From the NCBI RefSeq assembly GCF_003060885.1, contig NZ_QAIG01000012.1:307885-371884 (forward strand): 64,000 bases of DNA, in the 5' to 3' direction. A program made the position numbers and the translations under genes. The notes beneath the pieces are model-generated. The model saw only the letters and a program-made list of their open reading frames with translations, was not told the origin of the DNA and ran no database searches. Below, piece by piece: positions 18,090 to 63,993 of this stretch. The stretch comes from Pseudomonas sp. HMWF032. GTDB lineage: Bacteria > Pseudomonadota > Gammaproteobacteria > Pseudomonadales > Pseudomonadaceae. The first letter of the stretch is position 1; every line of letters starts with the position of its first letter.

Positions 18090-18761
18090 TTAGTCGTTAC
18101 GTGCGCCGCCTAGGTAGCCGCAGCCGCGCAGGATTTGACCGTTGAGGCGCAACTCGGCACTCAGGTGCTGGATGGCGCCACTCATGCTGTCGACACAGCG
18201 TTGTTTGGCTACCCAGAGTTCAAGGCGCTGGCCATTGGCCTCGCTGCTCAGGTTCAGCCGGCCTTCCGGCAGTTGTTCTTCCAGATAGGGCAGCGCCTGA
18301 GGCTCTTGTCCCGGGCGGTGCAGGACCAGTCCCTGGTTACTCACCGCAATGCTCCAGTCCGGTTCATGGCCGCTGGCACGCAGCAGGGTGCGGGCAAAGT
18401 TAATGTCCTTACAGCCATGCCCTTCGGCCTGCAAGCGATACACCTGGCTGGGGAGAAATTTGCCGTCGACATCTTTCTGGGAGCTGGCCTGCAACAGCCC
18501 ACGCATATCGACATACAAGCTGCTAGGGCCGTTAGCCAGAAGGCCGACCGCATCGCGGCTCAATCCATTTGCTCCGGCATCCTCAACCACAAACTGGCGC
18601 TGCTCCTGGCAGGGGCGAAAGCGCAGTTGTCCGGCGTTCAGGCTCAGCTCACCCTGCAGACGGCTCTGTGTGGGCGCGGTTTCAGTGGGTTTGTCGGTAA
18701 ACACCTGGCAACTGGCGAGCAGTGGCAGCAAGACAAGGCAGAACGGACGGCTGAAACGCAT
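18090..18761 (-). CDS. Outer membrane-type lipoprotein, conserved hypothetical (COG3650-like)
   Basis: 223 residues from the ATG at 18761, which has CAGGAG 8 bases upstream and yields a signal with lipobox LLASC. The longer frame (to 18788) is rejected. The mature protein is beta-rich with two similar halves, each containing a Cys followed by a Trp/Val strand (LRFRPCQEQRQFVV; LELWVAKQRCVDSMSG), as in the COG3650 family of predicted membrane proteins. No known function. It is the last conserved gene before the accessory island. Confidence 0.75.
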   Translation of the reverse strand: MRFSRPFCLVLLPLLASCQVFTDKPTETAPTQSRLQGELSLNAGQLRFRPCQEQRQFVVEDAGANGLSRDAVGLLANGPSSLYVDMRGLLQASSQKDVDGKFLPSQVYRLQAEGHGCKDINFARTLLRASGHEPDWSIAVSNQGLVLHRPGQEPQALPYLEEQLPEGRLNLSSEANGQRLELWVAKQRCVDSMSGAIQHLSAELRLNGQILRGCGYLGGARND

Positions 18762-19178
18762 CGTGACACTCCTGAAAAGTGCGCTCACGTTACCTAGGCA
18801 CCTGAATGATCACAAGGGGAATGGAGGAGCAATTGAGCGGATTATGGTTGAGAAAAATCAGTGGTATAACCAGTCAGTAATTAGCCGTTCATGGTTTAAA
18901 TAATAACGAAAACTGAATGCTGGGTTGCACCGAAATAGTTGCTGGCAAACTTTAAGAGGTTGCCGGCCTGGTATTAACATGCAGGCAAAGCGCTGTGGCC
19001 GATGAAGAATTGCGAGTATCGACCCAGAAGAGAACGGATGTCAGTCATATAACGAGCCGAAACCAAATGAACTCAGATAATTTGTAAAAGCAAAGGGCTG
19101 ACTTGGATGTTGCGATTTTGTGTCCTGCACATATTTTTATGCTTCCTTGCATCTTAAGTCCGCTGATTTTATAGCCGC
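18762..19178. other. AT-rich non-coding stretch at the left edge of the cassette island
   Basis: About 420 bases without a credible ORF or ribosome site on either strand. Composition is clearly more AT-rich than the neighbouring lipoprotein gene. Possibly a gene-less cassette remnant or the distal junction of the integrated element. No repeat matching the tRNA-Ser fragment at 23024 was seen here. Confidence 0.5.
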
Positions 19179-19244
19179 TTCTAACGTTTGGCTAAGGGGG
19201 CACGTTCAGTGAGCACAGCGAACAGTTCGAACCAGTTGTTACGT
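19179..19244 (-). other. attC site 5 (end of glyoxalase-family cassette)
   Basis: Read on the minus strand: left core ACGTAAC, spacer AACTG, GTTCGAA (2L), a central palindrome, CCTTAGC (2R), spacer CAAAC, right core GTTAGAA. The 66-base length and arms match the other attC sites in the window. 2L carries the extra C that sets minus-strand orientation. Confidence 0.82.
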
Positions 19245-19604
19245 GCTTGCGGGCTCATTAAATAGCACTTTATTTGAAAACGGGTCCGTAACGGTAAAAC
19301 AACGATCACCCCATGGGGCCTGCTCAATTTCTGGCTTATTGTACTTATACGGCCGGGAGGTTACCTCATGATAAAGAGTTTCAATGTCACTTACGTTGAC
19401 AAAAACCTTACTGCCTGGCGTGCAATCACCTGAGTGCTCGCTGAGATGGAAAACAAGATTTCCTTTTGACACCTGCATGTATATCGGAAAATTTTCCTCA
19501 AAGCGATGCTCCCAATCGAGGCTCATACCCAAAAAGTCGAGGTAGAACTCTTTCGCTTTACCTTCATCGAAAATCCGCAAAATGGGTATTGTTTGAAATT
19601 CCAT
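19239..19604 (-). CDS. Glyoxalase/bleomycin-resistance superfamily protein (cassette gene)
   Basis: 121 residues. The ATG at 19604 is preferred to the frame extension to 19673 because AAGGA sits in front of it. The VOC-fold pattern is visible: IPILRIFDEGKAKEFYLDFLGMSLDWEHRF, NLVFHLSEHSGD with a candidate metal/ligand His-Glu, and the terminal strand DRCFTVTDPFSNKVLFNEP. Proteins of this family are common in integron cassettes; they may bind hydrophobic drugs or act as metal enzymes. Its TAA stop lies inside the attC core, a typical cassette arrangement. Codon use and GC are lower than in the core genes. Confidence 0.85.
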   Translation of the reverse strand: MEFQTIPILRIFDEGKAKEFYLDFLGMSLDWEHRFEENFPIYMQVSKGNLVFHLSEHSGDCTPGSKVFVNVSDIETLYHEVTSRPYKYNKPEIEQAPWGDRCFTVTDPFSNKVLFNEPAST

Positions 19605-19687
19605 GATTGATCCTTGATTGTACATAGGGCCGAATTCAGCGGTGGTTTTTAAATTGTGGTTTATGGGATGCATTTGCGCAGCAAAAA

Positions 19688-19751
19688 CATAAAGCTGAGA
19701 ACTAAAAGCTGTCCAGTCACGAAGTCGCGATACTGGAGCGACTTGTTATGT
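19688..19751 (-). other. Degenerate attC-like site 4
   Basis: On the minus strand a left core ACATAAC (19745-19751) is followed by a 64-base segment with a CCAGT...ACTGG stem, ending in TTTATGT where GTTATGT is expected. Position, between the 19806-20171 and 19239-19604 genes, is right for an attC, but arms 2L/2R are poor and the crossover G is changed. Confidence 0.45.
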
Positions 19752-19805
19752 GGTTTTTAGAAGAAACTTAACTAATTTTTATAAATAAACGGTTGATGAG
19801 TCTGG

Positions 19806-20171
19806 TTATTCAGCTATCTGTTTTTTTGTAAAAAATATAACAAGTGGAGTGGCAATAACCAAAAACAATATTTGATAGAGAGGTATAAATATGAAGGCGA
19901 GGCCGCCTTGTGCGTCTGGGTGATAATATGATATGTCAACCATGCAAGCTATACCTATCCCGCCAGCCACTAGCTCTAACAGAGTAATGGTTTTTAAAAA
20001 GGTGACGTTTTTATTTACAAATGCAAGAAATAAAATATAAAGCCAAGGGGAAATTCCCCACAGGCTAAAATATACCGCCTCCAAAGAAAAGAGTTTATTT
20101 ATCATGCTAAGAATTAAAAATAGAACAACGCTAATAATTAGCGCAGACAGCAAATAACATAATTTTCTCAT
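19806..20171 (-). CDS. Hypothetical four-helix membrane protein (cassette gene)
   Basis: 121 residues, almost entirely hydrophobic, with four predicted transmembrane helices (about 5-25, 35-52, 60-78, 90-112) and a basic FFTKKQ tail. It begins about 10 bases inside the cassette after the attC 3 half at 20181 and is AT-rich relative to the genome. No family recognised. Typical of small unknown membrane proteins in cassette arrays. Confidence 0.7.
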   Translation of the reverse strand: MRKLCYLLSALIISVVLFLILSMINKLFSLEAVYFSLWGISPWLYILFLAFVNKNVTFLKTITLLELVAGGIGIACMVDISYYHPDAQGGLAFIFIPLYQILFLVIATPLVIFFTKKQIAE

Positions 20172-20180
20172 TCTGGCCCC

Positions 20181-20224
20181 ACATAATGCTTGATTAAGGA
20201 GTGGGCTTAGCCCGTCCCAGTGAG
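20181..20224 (-). other. attC site 3, right half (split by the IS)
   Basis: The central palindrome (GACGGGCTAAGCCC on the minus strand) and the right end of a pseudomonad attC are present. The right core reads ATTATGT instead of GTTATGT, with CTTAATC for 2R, so the crossover base is mutated. The left half lies at 21602-21614 across the IS. Confidence 0.75.
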
Positions 20225-21601
20225 TGCTGTAATGGACTCTCCCCGCGCCACAGTTCTATACCCAGAGCCGTGGTGACTGAACAAAGGGCGAGGCGCGATG
20301 AAGCGAATTGCAGTTGATCTGGCCAAGTCCATTTACCACGTTGCCGAGAGTGTCCGTTCCGGCCAGGTGGTGCAGCGCAAGCGGCTGAACCGAGAGGCAT
20401 TATAGGCGATAGATACAGGAGCAGGCCGAACCGGTCGAGTGGGTGATGGAGGCCTGTGGTACAGCCCACTACTGGGGGCGCGTAGCGCAGTCCTTGGGGC
20501 ATCGGGTGAAGTTGATCCGTGCGCGCTATGTGCAGCCCTATCGCCGGCGCAACAAGACCGACCGTACGACTGCGACGCAATACTGGAAGCGGCGCGCTGC
20601 AAGGATATCTATCCCGTCCCGGTGAACCCCACGAGCATCAACTGCTGCAGCAACTGCACGGGCTGCGCGAGACCTGGAAGAAAAGCCGCACCCAGCGTAT
20701 CAACTTGTTGCGCGGCATCCTGCGCGAGGCGGGTATCGAAGCCCCAGCATCGACAGCGGTTTCTATCCGTGCCGCCCACGCGTTGGTTGACCGCCCAGAA
20801 TTGGCCCCCTTGCGGCATCAACTGCATATCGATCTGGCGGAAATCAACCTGTAAGAACCATGCATGGTCGAGTGCGAGCAGCAGCTCAAACGTTGGCACG
20901 CTGACGATGAAATAGTGTGCAAGCTGGATGAAGTCAGCGGTATTGGCCTGCTGACGGCCAGCGCCCTGACAGCGGCTGTCGGCAAGCCGGAGCGCTTTGC
21001 CAGTGGCCGCCAGCTGAGCGCCTGGCTGGGCATGACACCGCGTGAGTTCAGCAGCGGCGACCGCCGCAAGCTCAGTCATATCAGCCGACAGGGCAACGTC
21101 TATGTACGCACCCTGTTGATCCATGGTTCCCGAGCGGCCTTGCTGGCGGCGCAGCGCTGCCAGGCAAGCCCGCCGGAGAAACTGACCGAGTTACAACGCT
21201 GGGCAGTCGAAACGGCAGCCCGTATTGGCCACAACAAAGCGACTGTGGCGCTGGCCAACAAATTGGTCAGGATCTGCTGGGCGGTGTGGTGCCATGAGCG
21301 GCGTTTCAATGGCACTTGGCAGAGCACAAAGTCCGTCTGACGCCGGGGGTAATCAGAAGGGAGTGATGTTTTCTTGTGGTTGCGGTGAGCAGCACTGTCG
21401 GAACAGGCGAGTCCTGCAGCGGAATAAGGCCGATAACAATCATGATCCGCATGATCGATTGAACGCTTGGCCCCCGCTGCGCGAACTACAGAATGGCCAG
21501 GGCGGAACAGCCCAAAACAGGCCGCATATACGAATGCAACCGCGCTGACGAAAAGTGCAAAAGAAAAGCTTTGCTCACTACTTGAGGGGAGATTCCATAT
21601 A
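20225..21601 (+). mobile_element. IS110-family element, IS1111-attC type, decayed
   Basis: Imperfect inverted ends ATGGACTCTCCCC (from 20232) and ATGGAATCTCCCC (minus strand, from 21598) enclose a degenerate transposase. IRs are slightly internal, with 3 bases (ATA) outside on the right, as in the IS1111 subgroup. The element sits in an attC: its right edge is exactly 13 bases from the end of the left core. The exact left edge is uncertain by a few bases because of flanking sequence outside the IR. Confidence 0.82.
20298..21340 (+). pseudogene. IS110/IS1111-group transposase, multiply disrupted
   Basis: Reading starts MKRIAVDLAKSIYHVAES (first Asp of the DEDD domain). It hits an in-frame TAG near 20403 and resumes one frame over with WVMEACGTAHYWGR and RYVQPYRRRNKTDRT (Glu/Asp of DEDD). 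It shifts again into LLQQLHGLRETWKKSRTQR, meets a TAA near 20852, then continues with the C-terminal transposase_20 domain (SGIGLLTASALTAAVG, SAWLGMTPREFSSGDRRKLSHISRQGN). At least two frameshifts and two stops, so it is inactive. This family uses a RuvC-like DEDD domain plus a C-terminal Ser region. Confidence 0.85.
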
Positions 21602-21614
21602 CGCATTGTTATGT
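21602..21614 (-). other. attC site 3, left half (split by the IS)
   Basis: Minus strand: core ACATAAC then AATGCG, directly followed by the IS end. The stop codon of the 21609-21971 gene lies in this core. Confidence 0.75.
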
Positions 21615-21971
21615 TGCATTGCGCTGTTGGCTTTTTCTGTGAGCTAGGCAACCGCCTATATAGGCTAAAATCATAGCTAAGCCAACACTTGACCAGAGTC
21701 TGATTTTTGCCGCTACCTCTACTTTTGCGTAAGCCTCTGGAGGTACTTTTTTGAGCAGGGTGAGAAGTTTTGTATCTAGTTCTTCTCTGCTGGTTAGGTT
21801 GCTGCGAATAGCTTCATATTCGGATGAAAGATCACCGGAAAAGAAAACGTGATCCATATACTTTTGATAAGCCATTTTCATTAGCCCGTCAGCGCAAAAG
21901 AAAGCAAAACTGAGAGTGATGAAAATTATTGCTGTAGTTATTTTTTGCTTTGATGGCTTAAGTAGATTCAT
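21609..21971 (-). CDS. Hypothetical two-helix membrane protein (cassette gene)
   Basis: 120 residues. One helix near the N-terminus (about 12-30) and one near the C-terminus (about 92-108) bracket a soluble, mildly acidic segment of some 60 residues with SSEYEAIRSNLTSREELDTKLL, probably helical and exported or periplasmic. The C-terminus is basic (HRKSQQRN). The start lies just inside the cassette after attC 2. No family recognised. The TAA stop is in the attC core, consistent with an intact cassette gene. Confidence 0.7.
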   Translation of the reverse strand: MNLLKPSKQKITTAIIFITLSFAFFCADGLMKMAYQKYMDHVFFSGDLSSEYEAIRSNLTSREELDTKLLTLLKKVPPEAYAKVEVAAKIRLWSSVGLAMILAYIGGCLAHRKSQQRNAT

Positions 21972-21981
21972 TGATTATGCT

Positions 21982-22057
21982 ACATAACGTTTGGTTAAGG
22001 GGCGGGCTTTAGCCCGTCCCAGCGAGCAGAGCGAGCGATTTGAACCAGTTGTTAGGC
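21982..22057 (-). other. attC site 2
   Basis: 76 bases. Minus strand: GCCTAAC, AACTG, GTTCAAA (2L with the extra C), a central GACGGGC/GCCCGCC palindrome, CCTTAAC (2R), CAAAC, GTTATGT. Near identical to the sites at 63918 and 63510. Confidence 0.92.
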
Positions 22058-22060
22058 GCA

Positions 22061-22324
22061 TTACTGCTGCTCTTTATTGCGGATTAAAGTGACCAGTTCC
22101 TCAAGACTTTTCGCGATGCGTTCGTTTGATTCAACAATGCGCTCATTAACTGCATTCGTCTTTTTGGCGCCTAAGCGTATTGCAGCCCACAATACGAAAA
22201 AAATCAGAAGAACAGGAGCGGTTGCAACTATGAGATTTTCGAATGCTGATTTTGATACAGATTCTGCCGCATAAGCAGAAAGCGGAAGTATAAATGCAGA
22301 GGCGAGGGCGGTAATTTTTTCCAT
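22061..22324 (-). CDS. Hypothetical membrane protein with coiled-coil tail (cassette gene)
   Basis: 87 residues. A cleavable-looking signal sequence ends at AYAAES, then one transmembrane helix (about 31-50, IVATAPVLLIFFVLWAAI). A polar heptad-like tail follows, VNERIVESNERIAKSLEELVTLI, with the NERI unit repeated, suggesting a coiled coil facing the cytoplasm. No family recognised. Lies between attC 1 and attC 2 as a standard single-gene cassette. Confidence 0.7.
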   Translation of the reverse strand: MEKITALASAFILPLSAYAAESVSKSAFENLIVATAPVLLIFFVLWAAIRLGAKKTNAVNERIVESNERIAKSLEELVTLIRNKEQQ

Positions 22325-22351
22325 GTTTGATTACACCTTATTTCCTTATGC

Positions 22352-22427
22352 GCCTAACGATTAAGCTAAGGGGCCGGCTTCGCCGGTCCCAGCGAACGGA
22401 GTGAGCGCTTTGAGCGCATTGTTAGGA
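22352..22427 (-). other. attC site 1
   Basis: 76 bases. Minus strand: TCCTAAC, AATGC, GCTCAAA, central GGGACCGGC/GCCGGCCCC palindrome, CCTTAGC, TTAATC spacer, GTTAGGC. More diverged arms than attC 2 but all six blocks are in order. Confidence 0.88.
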
Positions 22428-22445
22428 GCCGTTGGCGCTGAATAG

Positions 22446-22673
22446 CTATTTGCCACGATATTCAAGCCCGAATCCCTTACATGCGTGGCAATGTGAGTTT
22501 TCGATGCTACCGCTGCCGGCACAAGCTGAACATTGAACAAGCTCTCCTTCAAGAATGCCGTGCAGCGAAGATTTGCATCTTGAGCCATCACCTAGGTCGG
22601 CCAAGCAAGGATCATTTGAGTATCTCATGCTTAGATTGCGGCAACTTCTGCAAACTGAGTTTGGTGTGCGCAT
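22446..22673 (-). CDS. Small Cys-rich zinc-finger-like protein (cassette gene)
   Basis: 75 residues with nine cysteines. The C-terminal half has C-x-x-C-x-G-x-G followed by C-x-x-C-x-G-x-G (CSACAGSGS and CHACKGFGL), the pattern of the DnaJ central zinc finger, but only two of the four repeats are present. The N-terminal half has another C-x-x-C (CRSC). Likely a small zinc-binding protein of unknown partner. The ATG is 14 bases after the cassette core at 22687-22693. First recognisable cassette of the array. Confidence 0.65.
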   Translation of the reverse strand: MRTPNSVCRSCRNLSMRYSNDPCLADLGDGSRCKSSLHGILEGELVQCSACAGSGSIENSHCHACKGFGLEYRGK

Positions 22674-22686
22674 TCTTATTGAAGGC

Positions 22687-22717
22687 TCCTAACTATAAAT
22701 AGACACCAATTGGTGTC
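22687..22717 (-). other. Cassette core site and perfect 16-base palindrome upstream of the first cassette
   Basis: GTTAGGA (minus strand, 22687-22693) is a cassette core crossover site. Nine bases upstream lies the perfect palindrome GACACCAATTGGTGTC (22702-22717). No standard attC arms are present on the upstream side, so this could be an attI remnant, a truncated attC, or an operator/promoter region for the array. Confidence 0.5.
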
Positions 22718-22902
22718 ATAACGTTTATGGGGTGTGGTGGATAACATTCCTTGTCATGCGATAAGCTTTTGAATTCCTTGCATTTCCCAAAAGAAAATAC
22801 GACACAGCAAAAATGAAAAGCGGCATGGTGCTGAAGACAAGCTGGACTCATACTTTAATGGTGATAGAGGCTACTGGTCGGTGTTGTGGCTGTCTAGCCA
22901 GC

Positions 22903-23024
22903 GTGTCGATAAGTGTCGAAATCACTAGCCAGAGAAGGCCGGCATTGGACAGAATGGTGGTGTTTAGCTGTGCTGGCTTGCTGGTTTTATCCAACAAAGG
23001 TCAGCTACGGAGGGGTGTCGAAAC
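22903..23024 (+). repeat. GTGTCGAAA-type short direct repeats beside the tRNA scar
   Basis: GTGTCGATAA (22903-22912) and GTGTCGAAAT (22913-22922) are directly adjacent, and GTGTCGAAAC recurs at 23015-23024, abutting the tRNA fragment. The same unit occurs twice at 61732-61752 in the end of the recombinase remnant. They could be integrase arm-type sites or the leftover 3' end of an integrase gene. The rest of 22718-23014 contains nothing recognisable. Confidence 0.45.
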
Positions 23025-23050
23025 GGGTTCGAATCCCACCTTCACCGCCA
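23024..23050 (+). pseudogene. 3' fragment of tRNA-Ser (att scar)
   Basis: Contains GGGTTCGAATCCC (T arm), the 3' acceptor strand CTTCACC, discriminator G and CCA, matching the 3' end of a pseudomonad tRNA-Ser. The matching 5' acceptor GGTGAAG, D arm and anticodon arm are absent upstream. The tRNA terminator follows directly. P. aeruginosa has, as I recall, a tRNA-Ser next to earP in this position. Confidence 0.72.
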
Positions 23051-61699: not shown

Positions 61700-61917
61700 T
61701 TATAAGAAATTTATTTCGCGCTGTTTTTCGTGTGTCGAAGAAGTGTCGAAACCATCCAGCGGGTTGAGACGCAGCGCACCACGCAGATGGGAAGGGGACA
61801 AGTGGGCATAGCGCATGGTCATGGTCAGCGACGAATGCCCCAGCACCTCCTTTAAGGTCAGGAAATGTCCGCCGTTCATAATGAAGTGGCTGGCAAAGGT
61901 ATGACGTAGCATGCGCA
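61700..61917 (-). pseudogene. Tyrosine recombinase (phage-type integrase), C-terminal remnant
   Basis: About 70 residues in frame: LRHTFASHFIMNGG, LKEVLGHSSLTMTMRYAHLSP (second Arg, His and Tyr nucleophile), then LNPLDGFDTSSTHEK. These match P2-like/genomic-island integrases, not the IntI class (no IntI-specific insert). The gene is cut at its upstream end by IS1111-like sequence near 61912; the His of the H-x-x-R box reads Arg. Non-functional. Confidence 0.85.
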
Positions 61918-62525
61918 GCAGCTGCATAACCTGCGCGAGATGTGGAAGAAGTCCCGTACTCAGTAGATCAACCAGCTGCGCGGGATCTTCCGTGAGATGG
62001 GCACCGAAGCGCCGGCCAGCACAGCCGCTTTCTTGCGGGCAGCTGGTGAGTTCCTGGAGCGCCCGGAAGTCTGTGTCTTGCGTGGGGCGCTGCAGGTCGA
62101 TCAACCTGTACGAGCAGTCGATGCACGAGTGCGAAGCGCAGCTGGCATGCCTACGACTAGATCGTACGCAAACTCGACGAAGTCAGCGGCGTCGGCCTGC
62201 TGACAGCGAGTGCGCTGAAAACCGCAGTAGGCCGCCCGGAACGCTTTACCAATGGCCGCCAGCTCAGCGCCTGGCTGGGCATGAGCCCGAGAGAACACCG
62301 CAGCGGCGAGCGCCGCAAACTGGTGCATATCAGCCGGCAGGGCAACACCTACGTGCGCACGTTGCTGATCCGCGTGATCGATTGAACGCTTGGCCCCCGC
62401 TGCGCGAACTACAGAATGGCCAGGGCAGAACAGCCCAAAACAGGCCGGATATACGAATGCAATCGCGCTGACGACAAGTGCAAAAGAAAAGCTTTGCTCA
62501 CTACTTGCGGAGGAGAGTCCATATA
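61912..62525 (+). mobile_element. IS1111-like fragment, 5'-truncated and internally deleted
   Basis: Shares LQQLHNLREMWKKSR-type start, transposase C-terminal SGVGLLTASALKTAVG and SAWLGMSPREHRSGERRKL-like blocks with frame changes, and the same terminal sequence as the copy at 20225-21601, including GGAGAGTCCAT at the end. Lacks the first half of the transposase and the segment corresponding to 21120-21440. Confidence 0.8.
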
Positions 62526-62538
62526 CCAGTTGTTAGGA
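62526..62538 (-). other. attC half-site (site d), cut by the IS
   Basis: Minus strand: core TCCTAAC followed by AACTGG and the IS end, exactly 13 bases, the same spacing as at 21602-21614. Confidence 0.8.
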
Positions 62539-62961: not shown

Positions 62962-63036
62962 GCCTAACGTTTGGTTAAGAGCGTGCTTTAGCCCATCCCA
63001 GTGAGCGAAGCGAACGGTTTGAACCACTTGTTAGGT
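62962..63036 (-). other. attC site c
   Basis: 75 bases. Minus strand: ACCTAAC, AAGTG, GTTCAAA, central stem with GGGATGGGC, CTTAACC, CAAAC, GTTAGGC. Slightly mispaired central stem compared with sites a and b. Confidence 0.9.
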
Positions 63037-63509: not shown

Positions 63510-63585
63510 ACCTAACGTTTGGTTAAGGGGCTGGCTTTAGCCAGTCCCAGTGAGCGAAGCGAACGATTTGAACCAGTTGTTAGGC
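63510..63585 (-). other. attC site b
   Basis: 76 bases; minus strand GCCTAAC, AACTG, GTTCAAA, central stem GGGACTGGC/GCCAGCCCC, CTTAACC, CAAAC, GTTAGGT. All blocks intact. Confidence 0.93.
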
Positions 63586-63917: not shown

Positions 63918-63993
63918 GCCTAACGTTTGGTTAAGGGGCGGGCTTTAGCCCGTCCCAGCGAGCACAGCGAGCGATTTGAACCAATTGTTAGAC
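63918..63993 (-). other. attC site a
   Basis: 76 bases; minus strand GTCTAAC, AATTG, GTTCAAA, central GACGGGC/GCCCGCC stem, CTTAACC, CAAAC, GTTAGGC. Identical in its central part to attC 2 of the first array. The array continues beyond the right edge. Confidence 0.93.

Follow-up and report, generated by a model that had tools for sequence, protein, structure and literature searches.

The genome of Pseudomonas sp. HMWF032 contains an array of integron cassettes, here called array A, which lies in a window of 64,000 nt (contig NZ_QAIG01000012.1 of assembly GCF_003060885.1, positions 307,885-371,884) and is headed by an attI site, but has no integrase gene beside it. Array A is probably a secondary integron platform consisting of an attI site (attI-A) and cassettes, which is refilled in trans by the only integron integrase of the strain, the IntI of a second array, array B. 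The attC sites, the attI site, the single intI gene above the family cut-off in each strain, the replacement of proximal cassettes between strains and the sharing of cassettes between arrays can be read from the genomes; that IntI of array B itself performs the cassette exchange at array A, we infer. Taken together, one intI gene per genome, the turnover at attI-A and the sharing between arrays A and B make the action of IntI on attI-A in trans the simplest reading. Formally, array A is a cluster of attC sites lacking integron integrases (CALIN), and judged by its sequence it is best read as an attI-headed platform.

attC sites, attI-A and a single integrase

The window strain is represented by a draft assembly of 14 contigs and was compared with G154, a complete genome of the same species in one contig. 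For the detection of attC sites, a covariance model was built from 30 sites, none of which came from the window: intI-bearing loci of other genomes contributed 18 and array B of G154 the remaining 12. It was run on both strands. The original prediction of an attC array on the minus strand was borne out: the model recognised three attC sites, which share their orientation with the cassette genes (Table 1), and the only plus-strand match among these three was obtained for 21982-22057 with 13.4 bits. Five attC or attC-like sites had been proposed, with support at 19179, 21982, 22352 and a split site 20181/21602. The first three of these were recovered; the fourth can be retained as a site split by an insertion sequence (IS), the left half of which resembles other attC sites, but which scores just 8.7 bits in its broken form (E=0.4, unfiltered model). 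The fifth was lost, since the unfiltered model found no further attC over 18700-22000 and recognised none after cassette 4 in this range; the stretch 19700-19765 folds to some degree, with 4 of 200 shuffles reaching its stability, yet it is not matched by the attC model. The sites were also folded as single-stranded DNA of the strand opposite the cassette genes, and their stability was compared with that of 200 shuffles. For 21982-22057 and 22352-22427 the fold was more stable than nearly all shuffles, with one and none of the 200, respectively, being as stable. The site 19179-19244, for which 133 of the 200 shuffles were as stable, showed no such excess; most of its inner hairpin is gone. A search with Rfam gave no match in the window at gathering thresholds and four sub-threshold matches around array A, and a degenerate attC text pattern had no match over the genome; it proved too strict, and the covariance model took its place.

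With three attC sites recognised by the model and a fourth one split, array A exceeds the minimum of two sites for a CALIN. The site at its head distinguishes it from arrays at chance, attG-like positions, which lack an attI. attI-A was detected using a profile made from 16 attI sites that lie beside intI in other genomes; 20 shuffled windows gave no match to it at E<=1. The crossover GTT of attI-A is located at its left end, directly adjoining the first cassette. attI-A and attI-B, the attI site of the complete integron, agree in 90% of 67 aligned bases, and with the same profile attI-B reaches 59.7 bits in one strain and 62.7 bits in the other, which is close to the score of attI-A. The core of attI-A now resembles the attI of the resident integrase, by whatever route the core was changed. 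An intI gene next to attI, as in a complete integron, was not found: no IntI match was detected by tblastn in the leader upstream of attI-A, which runs into a remnant of a tRNA-Ser gene and earP.

The genome of the window strain encodes a single intI that exceeds the family cut-off; it is located on contig C2, scores 488.9 bits and has no internal stop. G154 likewise has one (486.3 bits), and the next-best integrase-family matches reach at most 82.3 bits in both strains. The predicted lack of intI in the window itself was confirmed, as the sole integrase-like match is a weak tyrosine-recombinase stretch of 24.6 bits at about 61778-61912 and no full intI is present. The intact intI heads array B, whose intI end is located on another contig, and three attC sites of its far end lie in the window. 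The order in G154 is array A, attI-A (3,430,846), array B (3,471,126-3,493,370), attI-B (3,493,742) and intI (3,493,895-3,494,839); attI-A is thereby 63 kb away from attI-B and about 40 kb from the far end of array B. It had been allowed that an intI gene elsewhere could make array A part of a complete integron. Such a gene exists, but arrays A and B are separate in G154.

Table 1. Features of array A and its surroundings, and further arrays of the window strain (positions refer to the window unless a locus or contig is given)
Feature	Position	Strand	Evidence or remark
attI-A, head of array A	22690-22758	-	profile, 57.8 bits, E=1.6e-16
Leader between attI-A and tRNA-Ser 3' remnant	22759-23015		without intI
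tRNA-Ser 3' remnant	23016-23050	+	comparison with relatives
Cassette 1 gene, Cys-rich protein	22446-22673	-	open reading frame and family search
attC of cassette 1	22352-22427	-	covariance model, 68.3 bits, E=2.9e-18; folds
Cassette 2 gene, 87 amino acids	22061-22324	-	open reading frame and family search
attC of cassette 2	21982-22057	-	covariance model, 97.9 bits, E=2.1e-27
Cassette 3 gene, 120 amino acids	21609-21971	-	within block common to G154
IS110/IS1111-type element inside attC of cassette 3	about 20225-21601, ends approximate	+	transposase broken
Left part of split attC of cassette 3	about 20180/20181-20224	-	83-87% identity to other attC
Cassette 4 gene, 121 amino acids	19806-20171	-	open reading frame and family search
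Cassette 5 gene, glyoxalase superfamily protein	19239-19607, frame open to 19673	-	PF19581, 160.9 bits
Decayed attC, distal end	19179-19244	-	47.8 bits, E=6.2e-12; inner hairpin shortened
Probable remnant of further cassette, without own attC	18980-19178	-	similarity to cassettes elsewhere
attC of array B, far end	62962-63036	-	82.3 bits
attC of array B, far end	63510-63585	-	102.6 bits
attC of array B, far end	63918-63993	-	101.5 bits
Array C, without intI	L138:5358-11825, own contig C9		11 attC in window strain, 3 in G154
Array D, without intI, near tRNA-Arg gene	L139:4372-7079 (own contig C8:48371-51078)		attI of second type

Cassette turnover and competing explanations

The flanks of array A are nearly identical in the window strain and G154 (99.2% on the left and 99.6% on the right), but the attI-proximal cassettes, two in the window and 42 in G154, have no member in common at 80% identity, the level at which sharing between strains was scored. 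A search of the whole G154 genome (E<=0.01, all candidates scored) gave no match anywhere for cassette 1 without its attC (22428-22688) or for the stretch 22058-22351 of cassette 2. The distal block with its IS is kept in both strains. The difference extends from the attI crossover into the attC at 21982-22057, where its exact end is blurred by the likeness among attC sites; array A thus displays the cassette turnover at attI between close strains that is expected of an active platform. In array B, the strains have in common the cassette at the distal end as well as members of a repeated cassette of around 320 bp, and the change is located at attI. In array C, the last two cassettes at the distal end are common to both strains and the change is located at TCTAATTATAGTTA. 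Cassettes are also shared between arrays: the repeated cassette has 27 members across arrays A and B of G154 and array B of the window strain, and within G154 the identity of cassettes A5 and B47 is 99.7% over 347 bp and that of A32 and B9 97.2% over 393 bp.

According to the proposed mechanism, IntI would join circular cassettes via their folded attC sites to attI-A, as it does at attI-B, and new cassettes would come in beside attI-A, while the distal block, in which one attC is interrupted by an IS and the last one has decayed, would stay frozen.

An alternative explanation is that array A is a relic which lost its intI gene, that its attI is inert and that homologous recombination via the conserved flanks brought in the cassettes by which the strains differ, from strains with other arrays. 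The flanks and the repeated attC sites would indeed provide homology, and loss of intI is common, as 12 of 18 orphan attI sites in intI-less Pseudomonas genomes keep an intI remnant. However, neither breakpoint falls in the flanks, one being the attI crossover and the other lying inside an attC, arrays B and C have changed in a like manner, and near-identical cassettes are common to arrays A and B within one genome; moreover, an imported array must itself have been assembled at this intI-less site in some other strain. We therefore regard this explanation as unlikely. It is highly improbable that array A is an ordinary CALIN, in which cassettes were inserted at a chance secondary site and the likeness to attI is accidental. 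Insertions of the attG type are described in passages of PMC12901181 and PMC12444791, and all that heads array C is a weak attI tail, but the profile match of attI-A (E=1.6e-16) with its clean controls already contradicts this reading, and at other loci the matching sequence precedes attC sites which lie on the correct side and strand in 71 of 71 cases. The original prediction had regarded the array as one of the scattered orphan pieces of chromosomal integrons. Its classification as a CALIN can be kept in the formal sense of an attC cluster without nearby intI, but the orphan origin has to be given up in view of its own attI, the one intact intI elsewhere and the proximal cassettes, which differ wholly between flanks of 99% identity. 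That a longer array A was collapsed in the draft, so that the difference between the strains is overstated, appears similarly far-fetched: the assembly consists of 14 contigs, and array B with its repeated cassettes is broken at contig ends, but array A lies inside one contig and cassettes 1 and 2 are absent from G154, so that a loss of other cassettes in the assembly would not abolish the difference.

Several points weigh against refilling of array A in trans by IntI. No recombination was observed, the species was sampled by two strains only, and in the draft of the window strain array B is broken, with 11 and three attC sites at two contig ends compared to 49 in G154. The head of array C resembles only the tail of a second attI type (E=0.19 with a profile of 13 sequences), and its proximal cassettes have changed nevertheless, whereas array D possesses a full attI of the second type (E=3.2e-9), yet all of its four cassettes are unchanged between the strains and the array is apparently frozen; the quality of attI alone is thus not predictive. 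Finally, at a conserved intI-less locus next to a helicase gene (see below), the intI extracted from G008, G064 and G277 is just 42-49% identical to IntI of the window species, so that it is doubtful whether the integrase studied here acts in trans on that locus.

Genes, insertion sequence and surroundings of array A

The predicted Cys-rich protein is encoded by cassette 1, has 75 amino acids and shows sub-cut-off similarity to the central domain of DnaJ and to anti-TRAP. The glyoxalase fold of the cassette 5 protein was corroborated by the family search, in which the named bleomycin-binding families score below their cut-offs, and the proteins of cassettes 2, 3 and 4, which had been proposed to be membrane proteins, had no family match. 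Beyond cassette 5, the stretch 18980-19241 has 73-77% similarity to cassettes of arrays A and B of G154 and of array C.

Insertion sequences of the IS1111-attC group are IS110/IS1111-type elements sitting in attC sites. The IS of array A agrees with this group in the family of its transposase and its position inside an attC, and is likened to it by these two features only. Its transposase is broken: the C-terminal part at 20864-21340 matches PF02371 (75.2 bits) and NF033542 (140.7 bits over profile positions 202-341 of 343), and a full-length transposase frame of this type is not present among the open reading frames of the window. Pieces of the IS are 82-94% identical to elements in other Pseudomonas loci. 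A similar IS110-type element is found at 61915-62535, just before the far end of array B.

No intact tRNA gene was found in the window. The relatives L015 and L018 have an intact tRNA-Ser(gga) gene before earP, where the window keeps just its 3' end, and in G154 an intact tRNA-Ser(gga) gene is located around 84 kb away, beyond intI (L147, about C1:3514936-3515025). The remnant before earP suggests an old island insertion or a rearrangement. The leader of array A is common to L012, L025 and L016 of P. peli, at the same place before earP, and parts of it also occur at array D and at four additional loci. When the earP loci of 80 named genomes were searched with the attC model, attC sites were detected only in L012 (seven sites, at least 98.8 bits) and P. 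peli (four sites, 26-50 bits); this place has therefore held intI-less arrays in more than one species. The attI of L012 is of the second type (E=2.8e-11). The L012 record is titled Kaiparowitsia implicata, which is a cyanobacterium, yet the locus is Pseudomonas-like, and this is probably a binning error. Short tyrosine-recombinase matches are found near L025, L139, L271 and L273, and one could guess from these that the leader represents the end of an island which targets tRNA genes.

Orphan attI sites in Pseudomonas and known integron types

In a first scan of 398 Pseudomonas genomes, with up to two candidates scored per genome, attI-A plus its leader as the query matched 44 genomes, three of which (G265, G255 and G385) had no attI match in the follow-up. 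The latter comprised 58 genomes picked for a query match, an intI gene or a locus already compared, and revealed 62 attI-like matches in 44 of them, a fraction which is not a prevalence. These matches consist of 18 sites beside intI (one of them, in G185, beside a pseudogene), the two of array A, three short ones of 24-35 bases, which were dropped, and 39 sites without an intact intI. At 27 of these 39 orphan sites attI is followed by attC, and every attC found lies on the cassette side and strand (69 at these sites and two at the G185 locus). An intI remnant is present beside one of 21 orphan sites in genomes with intI elsewhere vs. 12 of 18 in genomes without intI (Fisher p=7e-5, which is indicative only since the genomes are related); the query for remnants was IntI of the window species, so that divergent remnants may be missed, and L252, L253 and L260 were judged mainly by eye.

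Two conserved loci without intI were found in this sample, one next to a gene with a DNA-repair helicase domain (six genomes) and one next to a chemotaxis receptor gene and acnA (eight genomes), and within the flanks covered none of their neighbours occurs at the intI loci compared. In all 15 genome pairs at the helicase locus, the sequences are 66-89% similar over 400 bases before attI and 48-53% over 300 bases beyond it, compared to a baseline for random sequences with a mean of 50.3 and a maximum of 53.9. At the acnA locus, where seven of the eight genomes were compared (L233 was left out) and pairs were formed only within two subgroups, the values are 84-94% before and 49-53% after attI in six pairs of one subgroup and 87-92% and 51-52% in three pairs of the other. 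In 24 of 24 pairs at these two loci, similarity thus breaks off at the attI crossover, which speaks for the proposed refilling in trans; the count excludes loci III (one pair), IV and V, the pair at locus IV being just 57% similar in the 400 bases before attI; comparisons with L235 cover only 219 downstream bases, and L246 and L257 were cut a few bases off the crossover. All six genomes with the helicase locus possess an intI above the cut-off elsewhere. Many of the orphan attI modules L229-L268 start at a shared GGTGYATAAC motif, where the start codon of intI lies in complete integrons, and this module boundary is sharp. Concerted evolution of the orphan and the resident attI within each genome was considered as well. 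It fits the window species, in which the cores of arrays A and B are 90% alike over 67 bases and L012 has the other type, but it is not general, as the type of the orphan attI differs from the extracted resident types in G063, G177, G064, G331, G277 and G008.

The usual description of an integron is one intI with one attI. Like a CALIN as presented in passages of PMC12444791, array A is an attC array without an adjoining intI; it differs from a CALIN by the true attI at its head and by the turnover of attI-proximal cassettes between strains. With the sedentary chromosomal integron of array B it shares the attC type, cassettes and an attI that is 90% identical over 67 bases, but it lacks intI and is located about 63 kb from the intI-bearing attI in G154. 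The cassettes of the Delta-attI type in the part of PMC12901181 that concerns them also carry attI away from intI in a form usable by an integrase; there, however, attI pieces lie at cassette ends inside the integron, whereas attI-A heads a separate chromosomal array. The same source describes displaced attI pieces of mobile integrons as substrates of an integrase, and passages of PMC12444791 state that CALIN arrays can be mobilised in trans and lie at conserved loci in Xanthomonas. The insertion of IS110 elements into attC sites was proposed, in the portion of PMC11616780 dealing with them, to immobilise cassettes. A description of intI-less attI platforms was not found in titles and the beginnings of abstracts of the open-access literature, with the subscription literature mostly outside this search.

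There is perhaps an even chance that Pseudomonas runs distributed integrons, in which several integrase-less chromosomal attI platforms, both at fixed loci and as copied leader-attI modules, draw on a common cassette pool and are served by any resident integrase. If this is true, capture sites evolve apart from the integrase gene, each as a genetic unit of its own. Orphan attI sites recur in Pseudomonas, and common tools generally annotate attI for only a few integron classes. One integrase serving several attI platforms would mean that arrays filed as CALIN need to be checked for attI before they are called dead. It would also mean more sites for the capture and expression of cassettes, and it becomes testable whether attI can be inherited and selected apart from intI.

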